Source: Mycobacteriales bacterium (GTDB taxonomy: Bacteria > Actinomycetota > Actinomycetes > JAFAQI01). From it: a stretch of DNA of 61,660 nucleotides. Of this stretch, positions 1 through 10,046 are shown in pieces. The stretch spans positions 1 through 61,660 of the forward strand of contig DASZRO010000029.1 of NCBI GenBank assembly GCA_035550055.1, read 5' to 3'. Below the pieces are notes generated by a model. That model was given only the letters and a program-made list of their open reading frames with translations, searched no databases and was not told where the DNA came from. The translations under genes were made by a program, and so were the position numbers. Positions within the stretch are counted from its first letter, which is position 1. Every line of letters starts with the position of its first letter.

Positions 1-2385
1 GACACCACGAACTGCATCCACGTATCGGTCAACAAGCACACCAACCTGCAAGACCACGAACGGATCACGGTCACCTGGTCCGGTGCGCATCCGACCGCGG
101 GCCGGGCCCTGAACCCCTACGGCGAGACCGGTCTGGAACAGGAGTACCCGGTCGTCCTCATGCAGTGCCGTGGAGTCGACCCGAAGGACGACCCGAAGGT
201 CTCCGCCGATCAGGCGGTCAGCCCAGACACGTGCTGGACCAACACCTACTTCGAGCGCACGTCGTCGGCAGATCCGGGCCAGGGCGTGTGGCAGCAGGAC
301 GCCGCGGCATCCGCGTCGGACGGCGCTCACATCGCGGGCATCGACCCGTCGAAGATCCCTGACGAGTGCAACGTCAGCAGCACCTTCGACTACCACATCA
401 CGCCGTTCCTGGCAGCGAACGGGACGTCGTACCCCGGCTGCTCGTCGGAGTCGATGCCGCCCGAGGCCACGGTGAACTCGGTGACCATCCCGCAGGAGGC
501 GTTCGCGTTCACCAGCCTCGACGGCAAGGGCAACTTCGACTTCGACCCGCGCACCAACCTGGACAACGCCTCGCTCGGCTGCTCCTCGGCGGTGGCGTGC
601 ACCCTCGAGGTGATCCCGATCGACGGCATCAGCTGCGCCGCCGGCAACAAGAGCCAGGAGTGCAACGCGACCGGTCAGCTGCCGGTCGGTCAGGTCAACC
701 CGGGTTCCGCGCCGCAGGACGCCGTCGCGCCGGCGTTCTGGTGGTCGGCGTCGAACTGGGACCGCCGCATCCCGGTGCCGCTGACCTTTGCGCCGCCGCC
801 CGGCGTGTGCTCGTCGTCGGCGGCCGGAAAGCCGGTGCCGTTCTACGGGTCGGAGCTGCTCAGCCAGGTGGCCCTGCAGTGGACCCCGGCGTACTGCGAG
901 AACAAGTCGCGGTTCAACTGGCAGGACAACATCATGCCGGACCAGGCGGCCGACGCCCTGATGAACAGTGGGCAGGCGGCGGCGGCTGAAGTCTCGAGCC
1001 GGCAGGCGAGTGACGACGACGTCGCCTACGCGCCGACCGCCGTCACCGGGTGGGGGATCGGCTTCGACATCGACAAGCCCGGCAACGCCGGACAGCAGAC
1101 CACGATCAACCTCGACGCGCGGCTGATCTTGAAGCTCCTCACCGAGTCCTACCCGGGCTCGGTCGACGTCCGGTCGTCTCACCCGGGCTTCTCGCACAAC
1201 CCGCTCTCACTGAACCTCGATCCGGAGTTCATCAAGCTCAACCCCGGCCTCGACACTTCGCACTGGAGCGAGAACGCCGCCGCGCTCATGAACCTGTCGA
1301 CCAGCTCGGGGGTCATGACGCAGCTGACGTCCTACATCGCGGCGGACCCCCAGGCGATGGCCTTCCTGCACGGCAAGCCTGACCCGTGGGGCATGACGGT
1401 CAACCCGTACTACAAGGACTTGAAGCTGCCGGTCAGCACCTGGCCGCTGCTCGACACCTGGGTCGACAAGACCACCAACAACCCGTGCCTGCAGGCGGCG
1501 CCCTCGGCGTACATGCCACTGGTCGCCAGCCCGGTCAGCAGCCTCCGGCTCATCGCGACGGCGCTGCTCTACAGCTGGCCGATGGTCACGACCGGCTGCA
1601 CCGGAAACGGTACGACGACCTCGCCGTTCCAGCTGTCCCGGGCGGCGCCGGAGGGCATCGGCAACCGGTTCATGCTCGGCTTGGTGACGCTCGGCGACGC
1701 CCGGCGCTACGACCTCACACTGGCGAAGCTGCAGGCGTCGCCGGGTCACTTCGTCGCTCCCGACGACGCGGGTCTGTCCGCGGCGATCGACCTGATCAAG
1801 CCGGGTCCGAAGCTCAAGCCCTTCGAGCTCTCGGAGCAGGCCATCCGCAAGAGCAAGGCCGCCTATCCCGGGACGACGATCGTCTACACCGCCGCCAAGA
1901 CCTCCGGGCTGGACAAGACGACCGCCCAAGAGGTGTCGCAGTTCATCACTGTCTCCTCGACCGAGGGTCAGGTCCCCGGCCGCGGCAACGGCCAGCTGCC
2001 CGACGGCTACCTGCCGATCACCAAGTCGGGCGCCACGAAGCGGCTGTTCGCGCAGGCGGCGCAGGTGGCGAAGGTCATCGCCGCGCAACACGCGTCGGCG
2101 GGTGCGACCGGCTCGTCAGGTACGACGGGGTCCGCGGTCCCCACCGGCGGCGCCGGTGTGCCACTGCCGGTGACCGGAGCCAGCGCGCCGACCTCGCAGC
2201 CGGCGCCGGAGATCGCCCCGAGCGGCGACTCGCCGGCGTACTCCGACCAGCCCGGCAGCATCACCGCCGCACTCACCTCGCCGGTGGGCGGCTCCTTGTT
2301 GCCGATCGTGCTGTTGCTCGGCGTCACCGCCGCCGTCGCAACCGGCGCAAGCCGGCTCTGGCTGCGCAGGCAGGCAGTGCGATGA
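1..2385 (+). CDS. Secreted, C-terminally membrane-anchored surface protein (5' end cut by window)
   Basis: The frame is open from base 1, so the first in-window ATG (160) is not the real start and the N-terminus lies outside the window. What is visible is about 794 residues of Cys-containing, presumably extracellular sequence. A segment with VTGWGIGFDID followed by LDARLILKLLTESYPG resembles the hinge region of PstS-like (PBP-fold) binding proteins. A low-complexity Ser/Gly/Pro/Thr linker follows, then one C-terminal membrane segment (LLPIVLLLGVTAAVATGA) and a short basic tail (RLWLRRQAVR). It overlaps the sortase-like gene by four bases (ATGA), so the two are translationally coupled. A substrate-binding or surface-display role next to the PstS-like protein is inferred; the exact family is not certain. 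Confidence 0.7.
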   Translation, partial: DTTNCIHVSVNKHTNLQDHERITVTWSGAHPTAGRALNPYGETGLEQEYPVVLMQCRGVDPKDDPKVSADQAVSPDTCWTNTYFERTSSADPGQGVWQQDAAASASDGAHIAGIDPSKIPDECNVSSTFDYHITPFLAANGTSYPGCSSESMPPEATVNSVTIPQEAFAFTSLDGKGNFDFDPRTNLDNASLGCSSAVACTLEVIPIDGISCAAGNKSQECNATGQLPVGQVNPGSAPQDAVAPAFWWSASNWDRRIPVPLTFAPPPGVCSSSAAGKPVPFYGSELLSQVALQWTPAYCENKSRFNWQDNIMPDQAADALMNSGQAAAAEVSSRQASDDDVAYAPTAVTGWGIGFDIDKPGNAGQQTTINLDARLILKLLTESYPGSVDVRSSHPGFSHNPLSLNLDPEFIKLNPGLDTSHWSENAAALMNLSTSSGVMTQLTSYIAADPQAMAFLHGKPDPWGMTVNPYYKDLKLPVSTWPLLDTWVDKTTNNPCLQAAPSAYMPLVASPVSSLRLIATALLYSWPMVTTGCTGNGTTTSPFQLSRAAPEGIGNRFMLGLVTLGDARRYDLTLAKLQASPGHFVAPDDAGLSAAIDLIKPGPKLKPFELSEQAIRKSKAAYPGTTIVYTAAKTSGLDKTTAQEVSQFITVSSTEGQVPGRGNGQLPDGYLPITKSGATKRLFAQAAQVAKVIAAQHASAGATGSSGTTGSAVPTGGAGVPLPVTGASAPTSQPAPEIAPSGDSPAYSDQPGSITAALTSPVGGSLLPIVLLLGVTAAVATGASRLWLRRQAVR

Positions 2386-3359
2386 GCCTGGCCACGCTGA
2401 CCCGCCGGGTCGGGCTCGGCACGCCCGCCCCGGACGCCGACCGCCCGGTGACGGCGGCGAGCTCGGACGAGGCTGCGACGACCCGCCACGAGGCGGTCCC
2501 GGACGCCCGAAGTGAGCGGCTGTTGGTCGTGTCGTCGGCCTGCGCGGTGCTCGCGCTGGTGTGCGGCTGGATGCTGCTCCAGCTGCTCGTCCTCGGCGGT
2601 CTCGCGCACACCCGCAGCCAGCACCTCCTCTACTCGAGGTTCCGCTCCGAGCTGGCACAAGCGACCGCGCCGACCGGCGAGCTCGACTACAACGGCAAGC
2701 CGGTGAAGGAGGGCGCTCCGGTCGCCCTGCTGACCATTCCGGCCATCGGGTTGCACGAGGTCGTCGTCGACGGGACCACTTCCGGTGACCTCGCGGCGGG
2801 ACCCGGCCACCTGCGCGACACCCCGCTTCCGGGCCAGGCGGGCTGGTCGTGGGTGTTCGGGCGCGGCAGCATCGACGGCGCGCCGTTCCGCAAGATCGCC
2901 GATCTGGCGAAGGGTAACCCGGTCACCGTCCTGACCGGCCAGGGCAAGGTCACCTACACCGTCCTCGACGTACGCCGCGCCGGGGATCGAGGACCGTCGG
3001 CGCCGGTCGCGTCGACCAGCGGGCTGATGACGCTGGCGACGGCGGACAGCCACGGCTTCCTGTCCGGCCTGCGCGCCTCGTCGGCCGTCTATGTCGACAT
3101 GAGCACCGACAAGGCGCTTCCTGACGGGCCGGTCGCGGGAGCCGTCCCGGCCGCCGAGCAGCTGATGGCACGCGACTCGAGCTCGCTGCCGATGCTGACG
3201 CTGCTGCTCGCGGTGCTGACCGGCGTCGTCCTCGCGATCAGCGTCGCGCGCCGCCACTTCCGGACCGCGCTCGTGTGGCTGGTCTCGGCCCCCGCCGTGA
3301 TCGCCCTCGCATGGGCGGTGACCGACCAGGTCACCCGCCTCCTACCGAACTTGATGTGA
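2382..3359 (+). CDS. Sortase-fold membrane protein lacking catalytic His and Cys (pseudo-sortase)
   Basis: This 325-residue protein has an N-terminal membrane helix (about 48-72) and two C-terminal helices (about 268-315) around a sortase-like domain. The family landmarks are clear: LLTIPAIGLHEVVVDGT, then GPGHLRDTPLPGQAG, then DGAPFRKIADLAKGNPV. In active sortases the next motif contains a catalytic His (AGHR); here it reads VFGRGS. The catalytic Cys normally sits in TLTTC; here it reads TLATADS. An Arg remains in LRASSAVYV. Both essential residues are therefore replaced, and transpeptidation is not expected. The ATG overlaps the stop of the upstream surface protein, and the PstS-like gene follows after 41 bases, suggesting a three-gene unit. 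A scaffold or chaperone role at the membrane is possible but unproven. Confidence 0.8.
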   Translation: MSLATLTRRVGLGTPAPDADRPVTAASSDEAATTRHEAVPDARSERLLVVSSACAVLALVCGWMLLQLLVLGGLAHTRSQHLLYSRFRSELAQATAPTGELDYNGKPVKEGAPVALLTIPAIGLHEVVVDGTTSGDLAAGPGHLRDTPLPGQAGWSWVFGRGSIDGAPFRKIADLAKGNPVTVLTGQGKVTYTVLDVRRAGDRGPSAPVASTSGLMTLATADSHGFLSGLRASSAVYVDMSTDKALPDGPVAGAVPAAEQLMARDSSSLPMLTLLLAVLTGVVLAISVARRHFRTALVWLVSAPAVIALAWAVTDQVTRLLPNLM

Positions 3360-3400: not shown

Positions 3401-5242
3401 ATGTCCGTTCGCAAGAACAGCGTCAAGCTGGGCGTGGCCGCCGCGGCCGCGTTCGGCTTGGCCCTAACCGCGGCGGCGCCGGCAGGCGCGGTCGATGGGG
3501 GTCCGTCGACCTCGCCGAAACTCGGCACCGACATCATCGGCGCCGGCTCCGACACCACCCAGTACATCCTGGACAAGCTGGCGACCGACTACGACGCGGC
3601 GCACACCAGCGGCCCGCAGCTGGTCAACTACGACGCGTGCGTCGGCGCGACCGGCACCACCGCGACCGGACTCGGCTCCAACCCGGACGGCTCGGGTTTC
3701 CCGTGCGGTGCTGACAACACCGGCACCAAGGTCGGCGTGGCGCGTCCCGCAACCGTCATCGACCCGAAGGCGCCCGCCGCAGCGGTCATGCCGAACAGCT
3801 CCGGGTCGGGTCGTACGTTGCTGCGTACGCCCACGGACCCGCTGTTCAACGACGTCGCCTTCGCGCGCTCGTCGGGTCCGCTGAACACCACCGACCTCGC
3901 CGCCGGCGAGATCGGCCTGCCGTTCGCGGTCGACAAGATCGTCACGGCGACCAACCCGAGCGGTCCGGCGCCGGCGGCGCTGACCGGCCTGCAGGTGCTG
4001 CGCATCTACAACGGCACCTACACCAACTGGGACCAGGTCGGCGGCAAGGACGCCGAGATCCACCCGTACCTTCCCAAGGCCGGTTCGGGCACGCTGAACG
4101 CCTCCGAGGCGTTCCTCGCGCAGCTCGACGGCGTGACCGAGGCGCCGGGCACCGACAACGACCCGAGCTCGCACAGCGCGGCGTACCAGACCTGGCAGGG
4201 CCCGGGCGTCACGATCACCGACTCGAACTGGAACACCGGCAAGGCCAACGTCGAGGAGCACGACCCGTCGATCATCGCGGCCGACCCGGACGCGATCGAG
4301 ATGTTCTCCTACGCCCGTGCCGAGCTGGCCAACACCAAGTCGCAGATCCTGCGGATCGAGGGCGGCTGGTCCGAGGACCGCGAGCTGTACGACGTCGTGC
4401 GCGGCAAGGCCATCGCCGGCGCCACGACCACGCCGTTCCTCTACGGCAGCGACAACAACGTGCTCGAGGGCATCTTCTCGAACACCGGCTGGATCTGCAC
4501 CAACTCGACGGCGCAGGCGGACATCGCGGCGCTCAACGAGTGGCCGCTGAGCTCCAAGCTGTGCGGGGTGGCGAACAACAACACCGTCGACACCATCAAC
4601 CCGTTCGCCAGCAACGGCGTGGGTGAGGGCGCGTCGACGACGACCACCGCGCTCTACAGCAGTGGCACGATCCACGTGACCGTGGCCGCGTCGGACGGCA
4701 GCGTCCCGACCGGCTCGGTGCAGGTCGTCATCGCGCCGCCGGCGGTTGCCGGCGGTACTCCGGCGGCTGCGTCGTACAGCACGACCGCGACGCTGACCAA
4801 CGGTGCCGCGACGGTGACGGTGCCGTCGACCGTCTCGGGTAGCCAGGTCGTGGACGTGGCCTTCCTACCGACCAACTTCGGTGCGTTGAGCTCCGCGGGT
4901 GGTCACGCGGCGGACGGCTCGTCATACGCCGAGTTCACGCAGACCTTCGTCGCCGGTCCGACCGGCCCGTCGAAGTTCAGCAACCTTGCCAAGCCGGTGC
5001 TGTCCGGCAAGCACAAGGTGGGCTCGGTGGAGACCAGCTCTCACGGCCGCTGGGCGCCGGGGGCGACGACGTACTCCTACCAGTGGTTCAAGGGTCGGGT
5101 GAAGATCGCCGGCGCGACGAAGCCGACCTTGAAGCTGACCAAGGCCCTCAAGGGCAAGACGATTCACTGCACGGTGACGGCGCACAAGTCCGGGTACGCC
5201 AACGCCTCGTCGTCTTCCGCGAGCGTCAAGGTCACCGGGTAG
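3401..5242 (+). CDS. Secreted PstS-like phosphate-binding-fold protein with C-terminal Ig-like domains
   Basis: The chosen ATG has a GGAG Shine-Dalgarno six bases upstream and begins a Sec signal peptide (basic MSVRKNS, hydrophobic core, AGA cleavage site near residue 29); longer in-frame starts lack both. Residues about 35-430 match the PstS/PBP fold: IIGAGSDTTQYILD, a serine-rich loop, RSSGPL, a stretch from FAVDKIV to LQVLRIYNGTYTNWDQVGG, and PKAGSGTL. An Ig-like beta domain follows (about 435-530). The last 80 residues form a YQWFKGRVKIAGAT...GKTIHCTVTAHKSGY repeat common on actinobacterial surface proteins. There is no pst permease or ATPase nearby, so a role in transport is doubtful; surface binding or adhesion is an alternative. 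A strong hairpin follows the stop. Confidence 0.8.
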   Translation: MSVRKNSVKLGVAAAAAFGLALTAAAPAGAVDGGPSTSPKLGTDIIGAGSDTTQYILDKLATDYDAAHTSGPQLVNYDACVGATGTTATGLGSNPDGSGFPCGADNTGTKVGVARPATVIDPKAPAAAVMPNSSGSGRTLLRTPTDPLFNDVAFARSSGPLNTTDLAAGEIGLPFAVDKIVTATNPSGPAPAALTGLQVLRIYNGTYTNWDQVGGKDAEIHPYLPKAGSGTLNASEAFLAQLDGVTEAPGTDNDPSSHSAAYQTWQGPGVTITDSNWNTGKANVEEHDPSIIAADPDAIEMFSYARAELANTKSQILRIEGGWSEDRELYDVVRGKAIAGATTTPFLYGSDNNVLEGIFSNTGWICTNSTAQADIAALNEWPLSSKLCGVANNNTVDTINPFASNGVGEGASTTTTALYSSGTIHVTVAASDGSVPTGSVQVVIAPPAVAGGTPAAASYSTTATLTNGAATVTVPSTVSGSQVVDVAFLPTNFGALSSAGGHAADGSSYAEFTQTFVAGPTGPSKFSNLAKPVLSGKHKVGSVETSSHGRWAPGATTYSYQWFKGRVKIAGATKPTLKLTKALKGKTIHCTVTAHKSGYANASSSSASVKVTG

Positions 5243-5300: not shown

Positions 5301-5388
5301 GTTCGAAGTAGCACACAACGTCGCGGTAGTCGTGGCGGTATGCGCTGCGGTGTCCGGTTCGGGAGGCGCGTTGTGTGCTACTTCGAAC
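5301..5388. repeat. Inverted-repeat element A, copy 1
   Basis: The arms GTTCGAAGTAGCACACAACG (5301-5320) and its exact reverse complement (5369-5388) enclose a 48-base centre containing TGCGGTGTCCGGTT. Copies with the same arms occur at 9074-9154 and 39862-39943. All three sit between convergent genes. This copy starts one base after the hairpin of the left-hand gene and lies 12 bases beyond the stop of the P450 gene on the other strand. Confidence 0.9.
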
Positions 5389-6930: not shown

Positions 6931-8055
6931 TTGACGGCGATTCCCCACCGCCATCTTGTTCGACCCCGCGCGCTGCTGGCGCTGGCACTGTGTGTCGCGT
7001 CGCTGGCCGGCGGAGTGGTCGCGACATCGCCTGCGGCCGCCGAGACCGTCAAGCAGCAGATCGCGGACGCACAGCAGCAGCTGCGATCGCTCGACAGTCA
7101 GGCGGAGGCCGCCAGCGAGGCCTACGATGCCGCGCGCATCAAGCTCGCCGCTGCGCACACTGCCGCGGCCAGCGCAGCCAAGGCGGTGACCTCGGCGCAG
7201 CAGCGACTCGCTGCGCTGCAGTCGTCGGTGACCGCCTTCGCCGTCGCGGCGTACCGCGGTGGTGGTACGAACTCCGTGCTCGGCCTGGTCAGCGACGGCT
7301 CCACCGGACGCTACATCGACCAGCTGTCGTCCATGCAGGCGATCTCGGTCAGCGAGGCGCGGACGCTGTCCGACGTCGAGGCAGCCCAGCGCGTCGAGTC
7401 GGCCGCGCAGGCGACTGCGCAGGCGGCGTTGGCGAAGCAGCAGGCCGCGACCGACCTCATCGACGCGTCTCGCCAGAAGATCCAGGCCGCGGCCGCCAAG
7501 GAGCAGCAGATCCTGTCGGGGCTCGAGGCGAAGGAAGCCGCCATCATCAAGGCGGCGAAGGCCCGCGCCGCAAAGCTCGCCGCGGAGCGGGAGCAGGCTC
7601 GGCTGGAGGCGGAGAGCCAGGCGACGCAGCAGGGCGTCGAGGCGATCGACGACCCGGTCTCGCCGACGCCGCCGCCGGTGATCTCCGGGTCGGGCGGTGC
7701 GGCGGTCGCCGTGCAGTGGGCGTACGCCGAGATCGGCAAGCCGTACGTGTGGGCCGCAGCCGGGCCGGACTCCTTCGACTGCTCGGGGCTGACGCAGTAC
7801 GTCTGGGGCAAGGCGGGCGTCTACCTCGGCCACTACACCGGTGACCAGTGGAACGAAGGGGTCCACGTGTCGCAGGACCAGCTCGAACCCGGCGATCTGG
7901 TCTTCTTCGCCTACAACACCTCAGACCCGTCGACGATCCACCACGTCGGCATCTACGTCGGCAACGGCAACATGATCGACGCTCCCTACACCGGCGTCGA
8001 CGTACGGGTCGATCCGGCGTTCCGCTCCGACTACATCGGTGCGGTACGCCCGTAG
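6931..8055 (+). CDS. Secreted NlpC/P60 peptidoglycan endopeptidase with coiled-coil N-terminus
   Basis: The TTG start is preceded by AAAGGTAGG and begins a signal peptide (residues 1 to about 40, ending SPAAAET). Residues about 42-245 are Ala/Gln/Lys-rich heptad-type sequence, predicted coiled coil as in RipA-like hydrolases. The NlpC/P60 domain follows from about 260, with catalytic Cys284 in DSFDCSGLTQYVW and His338 in IHHVGIYVG. These enzymes cleave the stem peptide (gamma-D-Glu to diamino acid) and are used in cell separation; the coiled coil often controls activity or recruits partners. It is a single gene, followed by a lipoprotein gene with its own promoter. A second NlpC/P60 protein of different architecture lies at 59.2 kb. 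Confidence 0.9.
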   Translation: MTAIPHRHLVRPRALLALALCVASLAGGVVATSPAAAETVKQQIADAQQQLRSLDSQAEAASEAYDAARIKLAAAHTAAASAAKAVTSAQQRLAALQSSVTAFAVAAYRGGGTNSVLGLVSDGSTGRYIDQLSSMQAISVSEARTLSDVEAAQRVESAAQATAQAALAKQQAATDLIDASRQKIQAAAAKEQQILSGLEAKEAAIIKAAKARAAKLAAEREQARLEAESQATQQGVEAIDDPVSPTPPPVISGSGGAAVAVQWAYAEIGKPYVWAAAGPDSFDCSGLTQYVWGKAGVYLGHYTGDQWNEGVHVSQDQLEPGDLVFFAYNTSDPSTIHHVGIYVGNGNMIDAPYTGVDVRVDPAFRSDYIGAVRP

Positions 8056-8117
8056 CTGGCCCGATTTGCCCGCGGCGTACCTGAACGCCGTACCCGAATC
8101 CGCTCAGCCTTCTCCCG

Positions 8118-8123
8118 TACCCT
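8118..8123 (+). promoter_or_regulatory. -10 box (TACCCT) for a leaderless lipoprotein transcript
   Basis: TACCCT ends eight bases before the ATG at 8132 and there is no Shine-Dalgarno, which fits transcription starting at or next to the start codon. Confidence 0.4.
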
Positions 8124-8131
8124 TGATCGTC

Positions 8132-8692
8132 ATGCAAACGCACCGGGTGGCCCGCGTCGTCGCGATCGCGGCGACGCTGACGACGTCACTTGCGGCGTGC
8201 CACTCGACGAAGAACGAGCCCGGTCCCACCGTCACGACGACGACGGTCAAGCACCACACGAAGGTGGTGGTGATCCACACCTTCAAGACGCTGCGGACCG
8301 GCCAGGTGGCGCAGATCGGCGCCGCGGGCAGCGACGCGGCCGAGCTCATCAAGATCGGCAAGCCCAGCGTCTCGACCCACCGGCTGTCGTCGTACGCCGA
8401 CGATCCCGAGCACGGCTACTTCGTGACCTTCCCGATCAAGATCTACAACGATGGCAAGAACCCGTTGGTGGTCAACCGGCTCGACTTCTGGGTGAAGGTG
8501 CCGGGCGAGGGAGACCTCAACAACAACGACGGCGCGGCGCCGTTCTCGGGTGCCCATCGCCAGCTCGACACGACGGAGCTGGAGAGCGGCCAGGGGGTCA
8601 GCAACATCATGACTTTCGACGTGTCCAGCACCCACGGCACGTTCCTCTACGGACCGGGCGGCAAGCACGCCGAGCTCGGCTGGAAGTACTAG
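8132..8692 (+). CDS. Lipoprotein with DUF4352-like beta-sandwich domain
   Basis: The 186-residue product starts with a lipoprotein signal peptide: basic MQTHRVAR, hydrophobic core, and lipobox LAAC with Cys near residue 28. A Thr/Lys linker follows. The remainder, with YFVTFPIKIYNDGKNPLVVN and a late EL(E)SGQGVSNIMTFDV, has the look of the DUF4352/telomeric-repeat-binding-like immunoglobulin fold found on many Gram-positive lipoproteins. Longer upstream starts would spoil the signal peptide, and a -10 box sits just before this ATG. Function is unknown; surface location is well supported. The small gene at 8719 follows closely. Confidence 0.75.
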   Translation: MQTHRVARVVAIAATLTTSLAACHSTKNEPGPTVTTTTVKHHTKVVVIHTFKTLRTGQVAQIGAAGSDAAELIKIGKPSVSTHRLSSYADDPEHGYFVTFPIKIYNDGKNPLVVNRLDFWVKVPGEGDLNNNDGAAPFSGAHRQLDTTELESGQGVSNIMTFDVSSTHGTFLYGPGGKHAELGWKY

Positions 8693-8718
8693 GCGCTCGC
8701 TTGGAGGAGTCAGTCGCG

Positions 8719-9081
8719 GTGGAGGTCGTCGAACGCCTGCGCGCCCACCGCATCTTCGCCAGCGTCAACCGTCGCGTCGGCGTCTACAACGTCGGGCTGC
8801 GCGTGGTGCTCCCTGACGGCCGCGAGGCGATCTGGGACAACGACGAGACGCCCGGGCTCGAGGCCATGGTGCTGCGCGACGGCGTACTCGTCGGCTTCGT
8901 ACCGCAGATCCCCGACACCGAGAACCTCGACGCGGAGGCGATCACCGCGATCATCGCGGCGACCGACTACGACGCGCCGCTCCCGCCGTCACCGCCCGCC
9001 AACCCGACCAGGGCCAGGACCTCACGGTTGCCGGCGCCCGTACCGAAGGCCCGCTGGCTGCGCCGCCTCCGCACGAAGTAG
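8719..9081 (+). CDS. Conserved-type hypothetical protein (120 aa)
   Basis: I do not recognise a named family. The GTG start is chosen because GGAGGAG lies nine bases upstream; an in-frame TTG at 8701 would overlap that site. The protein has an alpha/beta-looking core (VEVVERLRAHRIFASVNRR, then YNVGLRVVLPDGREAIWDND) with a small globular domain of about 85 residues and a Pro/Arg-rich basic tail ending RLRTK. No signal or membrane segment is present. Its final Lys and stop codon (AAG TAG) are part of the left arm of inverted-repeat element A2. It faces mshD across that element. Confidence 0.6.
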   Translation: MEVVERLRAHRIFASVNRRVGVYNVGLRVVLPDGREAIWDNDETPGLEAMVLRDGVLVGFVPQIPDTENLDAEAITAIIAATDYDAPLPPSPPANPTRARTSRLPAPVPKARWLRRLRTK

Positions 9082-9154
9082 CACACAACCCGCTGCAAAA
9101 TGCCGCGATTGCCCTGCGGTGTCCGGTTTGCCGCGGTGGTTGTGTGCTACTTCG
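9074..9154. repeat. Inverted-repeat element A, copy 2 (contains stop codons of both flanking genes)
   Basis: The 17-bp arms CGAAGTAGCACACAACC (9074-9090) and its exact reverse complement (9138-9154) surround a 47-base centre that again contains TGCGGTGTCCGGTT. The left arm supplies AAG TAG to the hypothetical gene and the right arm, read on the minus strand, supplies AAG TAG to mshD. Confidence 0.9.
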
Positions 9155-10046
9155 AACCGGCGGTGGCGGGTTTGGCGGGTTTGGTGGGGGTGGGGGCAGG
9201 CGGGCTCGCGAAGAGGCGGTCGGCGCTCCACCGGGTGAAGCCGAGGCGTTCGTAGAGGGCGATCGCGGCGGAGTTGTCGGCTTCCACGTAGAGCACGACG
9301 GTACGCAGGCCCTGGTCGCGGAGATGTCGCAGGCCGTGCAGCAGCAGCGCCTCGCCGAGCCGCTTGCCCTGCATGCCGGGCGCGACCCCGATCACGTAGA
9401 CCTCGCCGTACGGCTTCGATCCCGCGTGCACCTTCGTCCAGTGGAAGCCCGCGAGCGACCCATCGAGCTCAGCCAGGAAGAACCCGGCGGGGTCGAACCA
9501 CGGCTCCTGCTCGCGTCCTTCGATGTCGGCCAGCGTCCAGTCCGCCTGCTCCGGGTGGCCGACGAACGCCGCGTTGTTGACCGCCAACCAGGCCGCCTCG
9601 TCCGTGCCGACGACGAAGGTGCGCACGCTCACCCCCGGCGCCCAGACCGGCGCGGGCAGCGGATCGTCGAGCGACCGGTGCAGCTTCAGCAGCGTTCGCT
9701 CGAGTGTGAAACCGAGTGAGGGCAGTACGTCGTTGAGCGGCGCGGCCTCGCCCTTGGTCCAGATCCGTACGCCGGGACCAGCGGTGTCGACCACGACCGA
9801 GAGCAGGCCCCGAGGGTCGACTCCAGGCGCCACCACGAGCTCGGCGGCCGGATGCTCGCCGGAACGGTCGATGTGCGCGTACCCGACCAGCTGACCCGCG
9901 CGGTGCTGGGTCAGATGGGTGCCCGGCTCCCGGCGACGCAGCGAGGCCACGACCGGATCGGACAGCGGGCTGAAGCCGTCGGCGGCCATGACCGTGTCGC
10001 GCAGCCGCAGGACCGCGTCGGCTTCCTCGGCGGACAGCGACTCCAC
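9147..10046 (-). CDS. mshD: Mycothiol synthase (acetyl-CoA:Cys-GlcN-Ins acetyltransferase)
   Basis: The 299-residue protein has two tandem GNAT domains, as in MshD, which acetylates the Cys amine of Cys-GlcN-Ins in the last step of mycothiol synthesis. Diagnostic MshD segments are visible in the second domain: NNAAFVGHPEQADW, EPWFDPAGFFLAE, GEVYVIGVAPGMQGKRLGEALL (acetyl-CoA site) and YVEADNSAAIALYERLGF. The GTG at 10046 is preferred because longer in-frame starts run into the stop region of glnR. It lies 31 bases downstream of glnR on the same strand. Mycothiol is restricted to actinobacteria, so this gene supports the taxonomic call. The C-terminal GSK and stop codon come from element A2. 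Confidence 0.95.
   Translation of the reverse strand: MESLSAEEADAVLRLRDTVMAADGFSPLSDPVVASLRRREPGTHLTQHRAGQLVGYAHIDRSGEHPAAELVVAPGVDPRGLLSVVVDTAGPGVRIWTKGEAAPLNDVLPSLGFTLERTLLKLHRSLDDPLPAPVWAPGVSVRTFVVGTDEAAWLAVNNAAFVGHPEQADWTLADIEGREQEPWFDPAGFFLAELDGSLAGFHWTKVHAGSKPYGEVYVIGVAPGMQGKRLGEALLLHGLRHLRDQGLRTVVLYVEADNSAAIALYERLGFTRWSADRLFASPPAPTPTKPAKPATAGSK

Follow-up and report, generated by a model that had tools for sequence, protein, structure and literature searches.

Sortases are enzymes that staple proteins to bacterial cell walls. The gene at 2382-3359 of the window (the whole stretch of 61,660 nucleotides that was analysed, from a Mycobacteriales genome) encodes a sortase-like protein that was described preliminarily, from the sequence, as having both catalytic residues replaced and as a possible non-enzymatic scaffold for its two neighbours, a membrane-anchored surface protein and a PstS-like protein. 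The question raised by this locus is what a sortase fold without its catalytic residues may be used for, and with which partners.

The pseudosortase and its predicted structure

The features of the window considered here are listed in Table 1. The ATG of the pseudosortase gene (2382) and the stop codon of the upstream gene (2383-2385) lie in a four-base overlap, and the ATG of the PstS-like gene (3401) starts 41 bases past the pseudosortase stop; both spacings had been given correctly before. The Pfam Sortase domain (PF04203) is matched by residues 117-200 at 5.8e-12, as a partial domain (profile positions 1-85 of 125). The NCBIfam models for class E (NF033747; 57.2 bits against a cut-off of 160) and class D (NF033746; 30.2 bits against 165) score the protein far below their cut-offs.

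An AF2 model built on an alignment of 106 relatives has a mean pLDDT of 89.2. All PDB matches listed for this model are sortases, many of them at Z 13-18, including the class D sortase 4d70 (Z 18.1, rmsd 2.8, 153 residues) and the class E sortase SrtE 5go5 (Z 15.1). From the model we are confident that the gene product has the sortase fold; the preliminary description had called this fold intact, on motifs that do lie where it placed them. The three helices it had counted are found in the model as one long helix before the barrel (42-92) and two after it (266-292 and 295-320). The control sortases are gapped in the alignment where the two C-terminal helices lie, and W299, P304 and the LLPNL(L/M) end are conserved in the family. 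Apart from a disordered N-terminus and short loops, the protein has no cytoplasmic domain.

Catalytic columns were fixed by alignment with 19 ordinary control sortases. In the window protein they hold R161 for the His, A221 for the Cys and A235 for the Arg; the first two replacements had been recognised before, and the third had been overlooked. With class E and D sortases (NF033747, NF033746; 5go5, 4d70) the pseudosortase has in common the fold, the TIPxxGL, GPGH, PGQxG and GAPF motifs and the N-terminal TM helix, whereas it lacks the catalytic His, Cys (of TLxTC) and Arg, carries two extra C-terminal TM helices and is encoded in a Pst operon.

Table 1. Features of the window discussed in the text, with strand and basis of assignment
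Feature	Position	Strand	Basis or remark
Large membrane-tethered protein UpL, truncated at its 5' end by the contig edge	1..2385	+	ORF open at base 1
Pseudosortase P0001	2382..3359	+	325 aa; three predicted TM helices around extracytoplasmic sortase barrel
N-terminal helix, residues 42-92 (TM1 and extension)	2505..2657	+	AF2 model
Sortase beta barrel, residues 108-247	2703..3122	+	AF2 model and PDB comparison
Codon 161, R161 in place of the catalytic His	2862..2864	+	Arg or Lys in 112/116 relatives
Codon 221, A221 in place of the catalytic Cys	3042..3044	+	Alignment columns; no Cys in relatives
Codon 235, A235 in place of the catalytic Arg	3084..3086	+	No Arg in 116 relatives
Two C-terminal helices (266-292, 295-320), then family end motif LLPNL(L/M)	3177..3341	+	AF2 model and alignment
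PstS-like secreted protein: N-terminal PBP_like_2, C-terminal repeat (Ig-like) region	3401..5242	+	PF12849, 1.3e-14
Likely cytochrome P450	5401-6657	-	Haem motif FGGGTHYCLG, read by eye
Likely wall hydrolase	6931-8055	+	ORF ends in DCSGLTQYVW-type NlpC/P60-like domain, read by eye

Directly past the PstS-like gene, positions 5301-5388 hold a perfect 20-bp inverted repeat (GTTCGAAGTAGCACACAACG) with a 48-base loop. Its arm has 51 copies in the genome at two mismatches or fewer, often as opposed pairs spaced 67-68 bases, against 0 for the reversed control; these copies mark the repeat as a REP-like hairpin element that is dispersed in the genome.

Loss of the catalytic triad in the family

To collect members of the family, 198 genomes from the class were searched with a profile. 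Full-length members scored mostly 232-404 bits (one distant member 178, some fragments lower) and ordinary sortases at most 126, which leaves a clean gap between the two. A scan of named genomes, using patterns that exclude the catalytic positions, gave 80 further loci, all in Actinomycetota, among others in Nocardioides, Aeromicrobium, Mumia, Cryobacterium, Microbacterium, Streptomyces, Amycolatopsis, Dactylosporangium, Planotetraspora and Acidimicrobiia.

The alignment of 116 relatives has no Cys in the Cys column, where Ala (89), Ser (21), Thr (3), Gly (2) and Val (1) stand instead; its His column shows Arg (107), Lys (5), His (3) and one gap, and none of the relatives has Arg in the Arg column. 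All 19 control sortases keep the three residues. In the tree, a single branch separates the family from the controls (SH-aLRT 97), and the same split is recovered with the sortase domain alone and the catalytic columns removed (SH-aLRT 94), a topology compatible with one origin. Omega (dN/dS) ranges from 0.03 to 0.36 across 14 close pairs, and by this measure the family is under purifying selection.

When the whole phylum was searched, other classes proved to have members too. The three that adjoin Pst genes (L205, L207, L208) all lack the His and the Cys, whereas the five best-scoring sortases that are not in a Pst operon (L201-L204, L206) all keep His, Cys and Arg; from this contrast, a place in a Pst operon and the loss of catalysis go together. 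L207 (G198:C20:500000-517000, about 7817-9157), which adjoins pstC, has the triad R/S/R, with the Arg kept and a TTSNPE motif, and looks transitional, as if at an early stage of catalytic loss.

That the window gene is a normal sortase gene which mutated recently or is decaying as a pseudogene was rejected and is given a negligible probability. Solely the loss itself speaks for it, and it is ruled out because the triad loss is family-wide, omega is well below 1 and the family occupies its own side of the branch; the 116 relatives moreover have open frames in a fixed operon. The earlier argument against simple decay is borne out, and the catalytic loss is conserved together with the same neighbours. 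It is also very improbable that the protein has remained an enzyme by using a nucleophile other than Cys, for instance Ser or Thr. The Ser residues in the Cys column and the few retained His would allow it, but Ala is by far the commonest residue there and the Arg is lost as well. The preliminary description had named another His and Cys filling the active site, or homologues retaining both residues, as observations against its reading. In the alignment of the 116 relatives no replacement conserved Cys and no new His was found at the active site (the conserved His143 of GPGH is common to active sortases), and no relative retains both residues, since the Cys is absent throughout.

The Pst operon around the family

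The gene order in relatives, from neighbour profiles, is pstC-pstA-UpS-UpL-pseudosortase-PstS-pstB (UpS and UpL being names coined in this analysis), with variants in which PstS precedes the pseudosortase or pstB comes first. The profiles were seeded from loci of the same set, so that the counts are of homologues, and names were taken from Pfam and NCBIfam matches on one complete operon (L042). In this operon PstC (237.9, cut-off 196) and PstA (194.1, cut-off 193.45) exceed their NCBIfam cut-offs and PstB is just below its own (329.7, cut-off 343.2). The window genome likewise has a PstC over the cut-off and a PstB just below it (332.0 against 343.2); since PstB falls just short, the substrate may differ from phosphate.

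Some pst transporter gene was found at 106 of the 116 pseudosortase loci, many of the remainder being on short contigs (several loci sit on truncated contigs); pstB lies within 10 kb at 104 and UpL at 102, UpL and the pseudosortase often being adjacent. A point against the subunit role proposed below is a distant member (L175), which adjoins a divergently oriented pst cluster. Neither a kinase nor PhoU was a constant neighbour in the gene clusters. There is one pseudosortase copy per operon, and in 21 of 28 pseudosortase-bearing genomes the number of PstC genes over the cut-off equals that of pseudosortases plus one; most of the others have more. Seven genomes (G003, G005, G055, G068, G118, G137, G157) have two pseudosortase genes and three or four PstC over the cut-off each, and whole operons appear to be duplicated in them.

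In the window this Pst context is hidden because of a contig break: the window is the start of contig C29 and opens inside UpL. The minus strand of contig C46 (8,059 bases) encodes pstB, pstC, pstA and UpS and also has roughly 30 bases from the start of UpL, which overlaps UpS by four bases. The ends of C46 and C29 do not overlap; gene order and reading frame suggest that the two join into one Pst operon. The separate canonical pstSCAB of this genome is on contig C18.

Partner proteins

The importer set consists of PstC, PstA, PstB, two tethered PstS-fold proteins and often a third PstS. UpS is a PstS that is anchored by a TM segment at its C-terminus. The PDB entries that match it best are PstS structures, with which its phosphate motifs (RSDGSG) align. 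An exact RSDGSG[TA]-type motif is present in 40 of 71 UpS proteins and the N-terminal loop in 65 of 71; the window organism's own UpS contains VVRSDGSGAT. The PstS-like protein of the window matches phosphate-binding proteins of the PDB at 7.5e-6 and above.

UpL comprises an N-terminal Cys-rich beta domain, a PstS-fold domain with a degenerate ligand loop, a linker and a C-terminal TM helix. In the AF2 model of a homologue (L034; pLDDT 87.5), residues 328-760 have the same fold as M. tuberculosis PstS-1 and PstS-3 (1pc3, 4lvq), with Z 31 to PstS-1; UpL differs from these proteins in its TM tail, in its Cys-rich N-terminal domain of about 300 residues and in lacking the phosphate motifs, either of which was found in 0 of 91 UpL proteins. 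According to the model, UpL is a membrane-tethered degenerate PstS-fold protein. The upstream surface protein had been correctly described as membrane-anchored; its PstS fold, its truncation by the contig start and the membership of these genes in a Pst operon had been missed. Six Cys are invariant in UpL (C109, C128, C244, C250, C324 and C353 in L034 numbering; alignment A4), in or near the N-terminal domain.

PHO boxes and a linker motif

PHO boxes were searched as GTTCACC-N4-GTTCACC, which we take to be the core of the PhoP box, with at most two mismatches. They precede pstC in 23 of 70 loci (0.4 expected from shuffles) and PstS in 8 of 100 (0.2 expected); at this threshold none precedes pstA, UpL or pseudosortase genes, and none was found in the pseudosortase operon of the window genome, the sequence upstream of pstB included. 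The canonical pstS of this genome does have a PHO box. In Streptomyces, the PhoP box has been described as two 11-nt direct repeats (PMC7866108).

The linker of UpS is variable and rich in Gly/Ser apart from an [IV]DP[DE]TG segment or a near variant of it, which has PxTG in common with the classical sorting signal. [DN]PxTG occurs in 54 of 70 UpS linkers against 1.2 by shuffling, and is not enriched in UpL or PstS. LPXTG-type signals on UpS and UpL were rejected as ligands, being not clearly above the shuffled level. About a quarter of UpS proteins have no DPxTG, that of the window organism among them (QSGNGQPV at this place), so that binding of the motif cannot be the whole mechanism; in the window organism a contact between pseudosortase and UpS, if any, would differ from DPxTG binding.

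Proposed role

The protein probably belongs to an accessory phosphate importer, as a subunit with a sortase fold but without catalysis, and its most likely task is to keep membrane-tethered PstS proteins at the permease. We infer phosphate as the substrate of this importer from the motifs of UpS, the PstA and PstC families and the PHO boxes. The barrel would sit outside the membrane and bind instead of cutting; the pseudosortase would most likely dock or position the tethered PstS proteins at PstC/PstA, and phosphate caught in the wall would be handed to the permease through them. In most members the [IV]DP[DE]TG of the UpS linker is a candidate ligand for the old substrate groove, and the Arg or Lys that replaced the His would face this ligand and could meet the acidic tag. 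A bolder form of the proposal, possible but doubtful, is that the sortase has become a non-covalent latch, whose dead groove reversibly docks the DPxTG-tagged tethered phosphate-binding protein to the ABC permease, making a wall-spanning phosphate relay under phosphate starvation across Actinomycetota.

Two other non-enzymatic roles were weighed against docking, from which, by sequence, they cannot be separated. The pseudosortase might be a sensor for the state of the wall or the occupancy of PstS, with PstCAB or the Pho two-component system as the receiver of its signal; canonical Pst, too, is involved in Pho signalling. A Pst operon with PHO boxes, a partner with a degenerate PstS fold (UpL) and a possible regulatory function, and three TM helices with conserved W299, P304 and LLPNL would suit such a role, but with hardly any cytoplasmic part and with neither kinase nor PhoU as a constant neighbour we consider it unlikely. 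Slightly more improbable is an assembly factor or chaperone that holds UpS and UpL during export and wall insertion, outside the working importer: sortases naturally meet freshly exported proteins, and the four-base overlap with UpL in the window and the frequent adjacency of the two genes point the same way, but the strict linkage to PstC/PstA/PstB and the single copy per operon fit a subunit at least as well. For the docking subunit, scaffolding is a reasonable reading of the sequences. The non-enzymatic use of the fold proposed earlier is supported; the unit is a whole Pst-type ABC importer and not a three-protein surface complex.

Relation to known systems and significance

The operon resembles the PstSCAB importer in its PstC and PstA over the NCBIfam cut-offs, its PstB-like ATPase, its PstS with phosphate motifs and, in many cases, its PHO boxes. 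It differs in the added pseudosortase and degenerate PstS (UpL), in PstS proteins that carry C-terminal TM anchors or Ig-like repeats, and in occurring beside an ordinary pstSCAB. A literature search, with most subscription journals outside its reach, returned no description of a conserved non-catalytic sortase family or of a pseudosortase-Pst operon, and nothing relevant on sortases that are inactive or linked to Pst; sortases go unmentioned in a review from 2021 on phosphate transport in Streptomyces and its relatives. At the protein level the pseudosortase is a novel form of the sortase fold, without catalysis, and at the system level its operon is a novel form of the Pst importer.

Domain-based annotation will label pseudosortase genes as sortases and so inflate sortase counts. 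It seems that a nutrient transporter has taken up an old enzyme fold as a constant, non-enzymatic component. If the proposed role is true, a pseudoenzyme has passed from the anchoring of wall proteins to the import of nutrients, and Streptomyces, Nocardioides and other Actinomycetota would possess a second phosphate-uptake system that is widespread and, as far as is apparent, undescribed.
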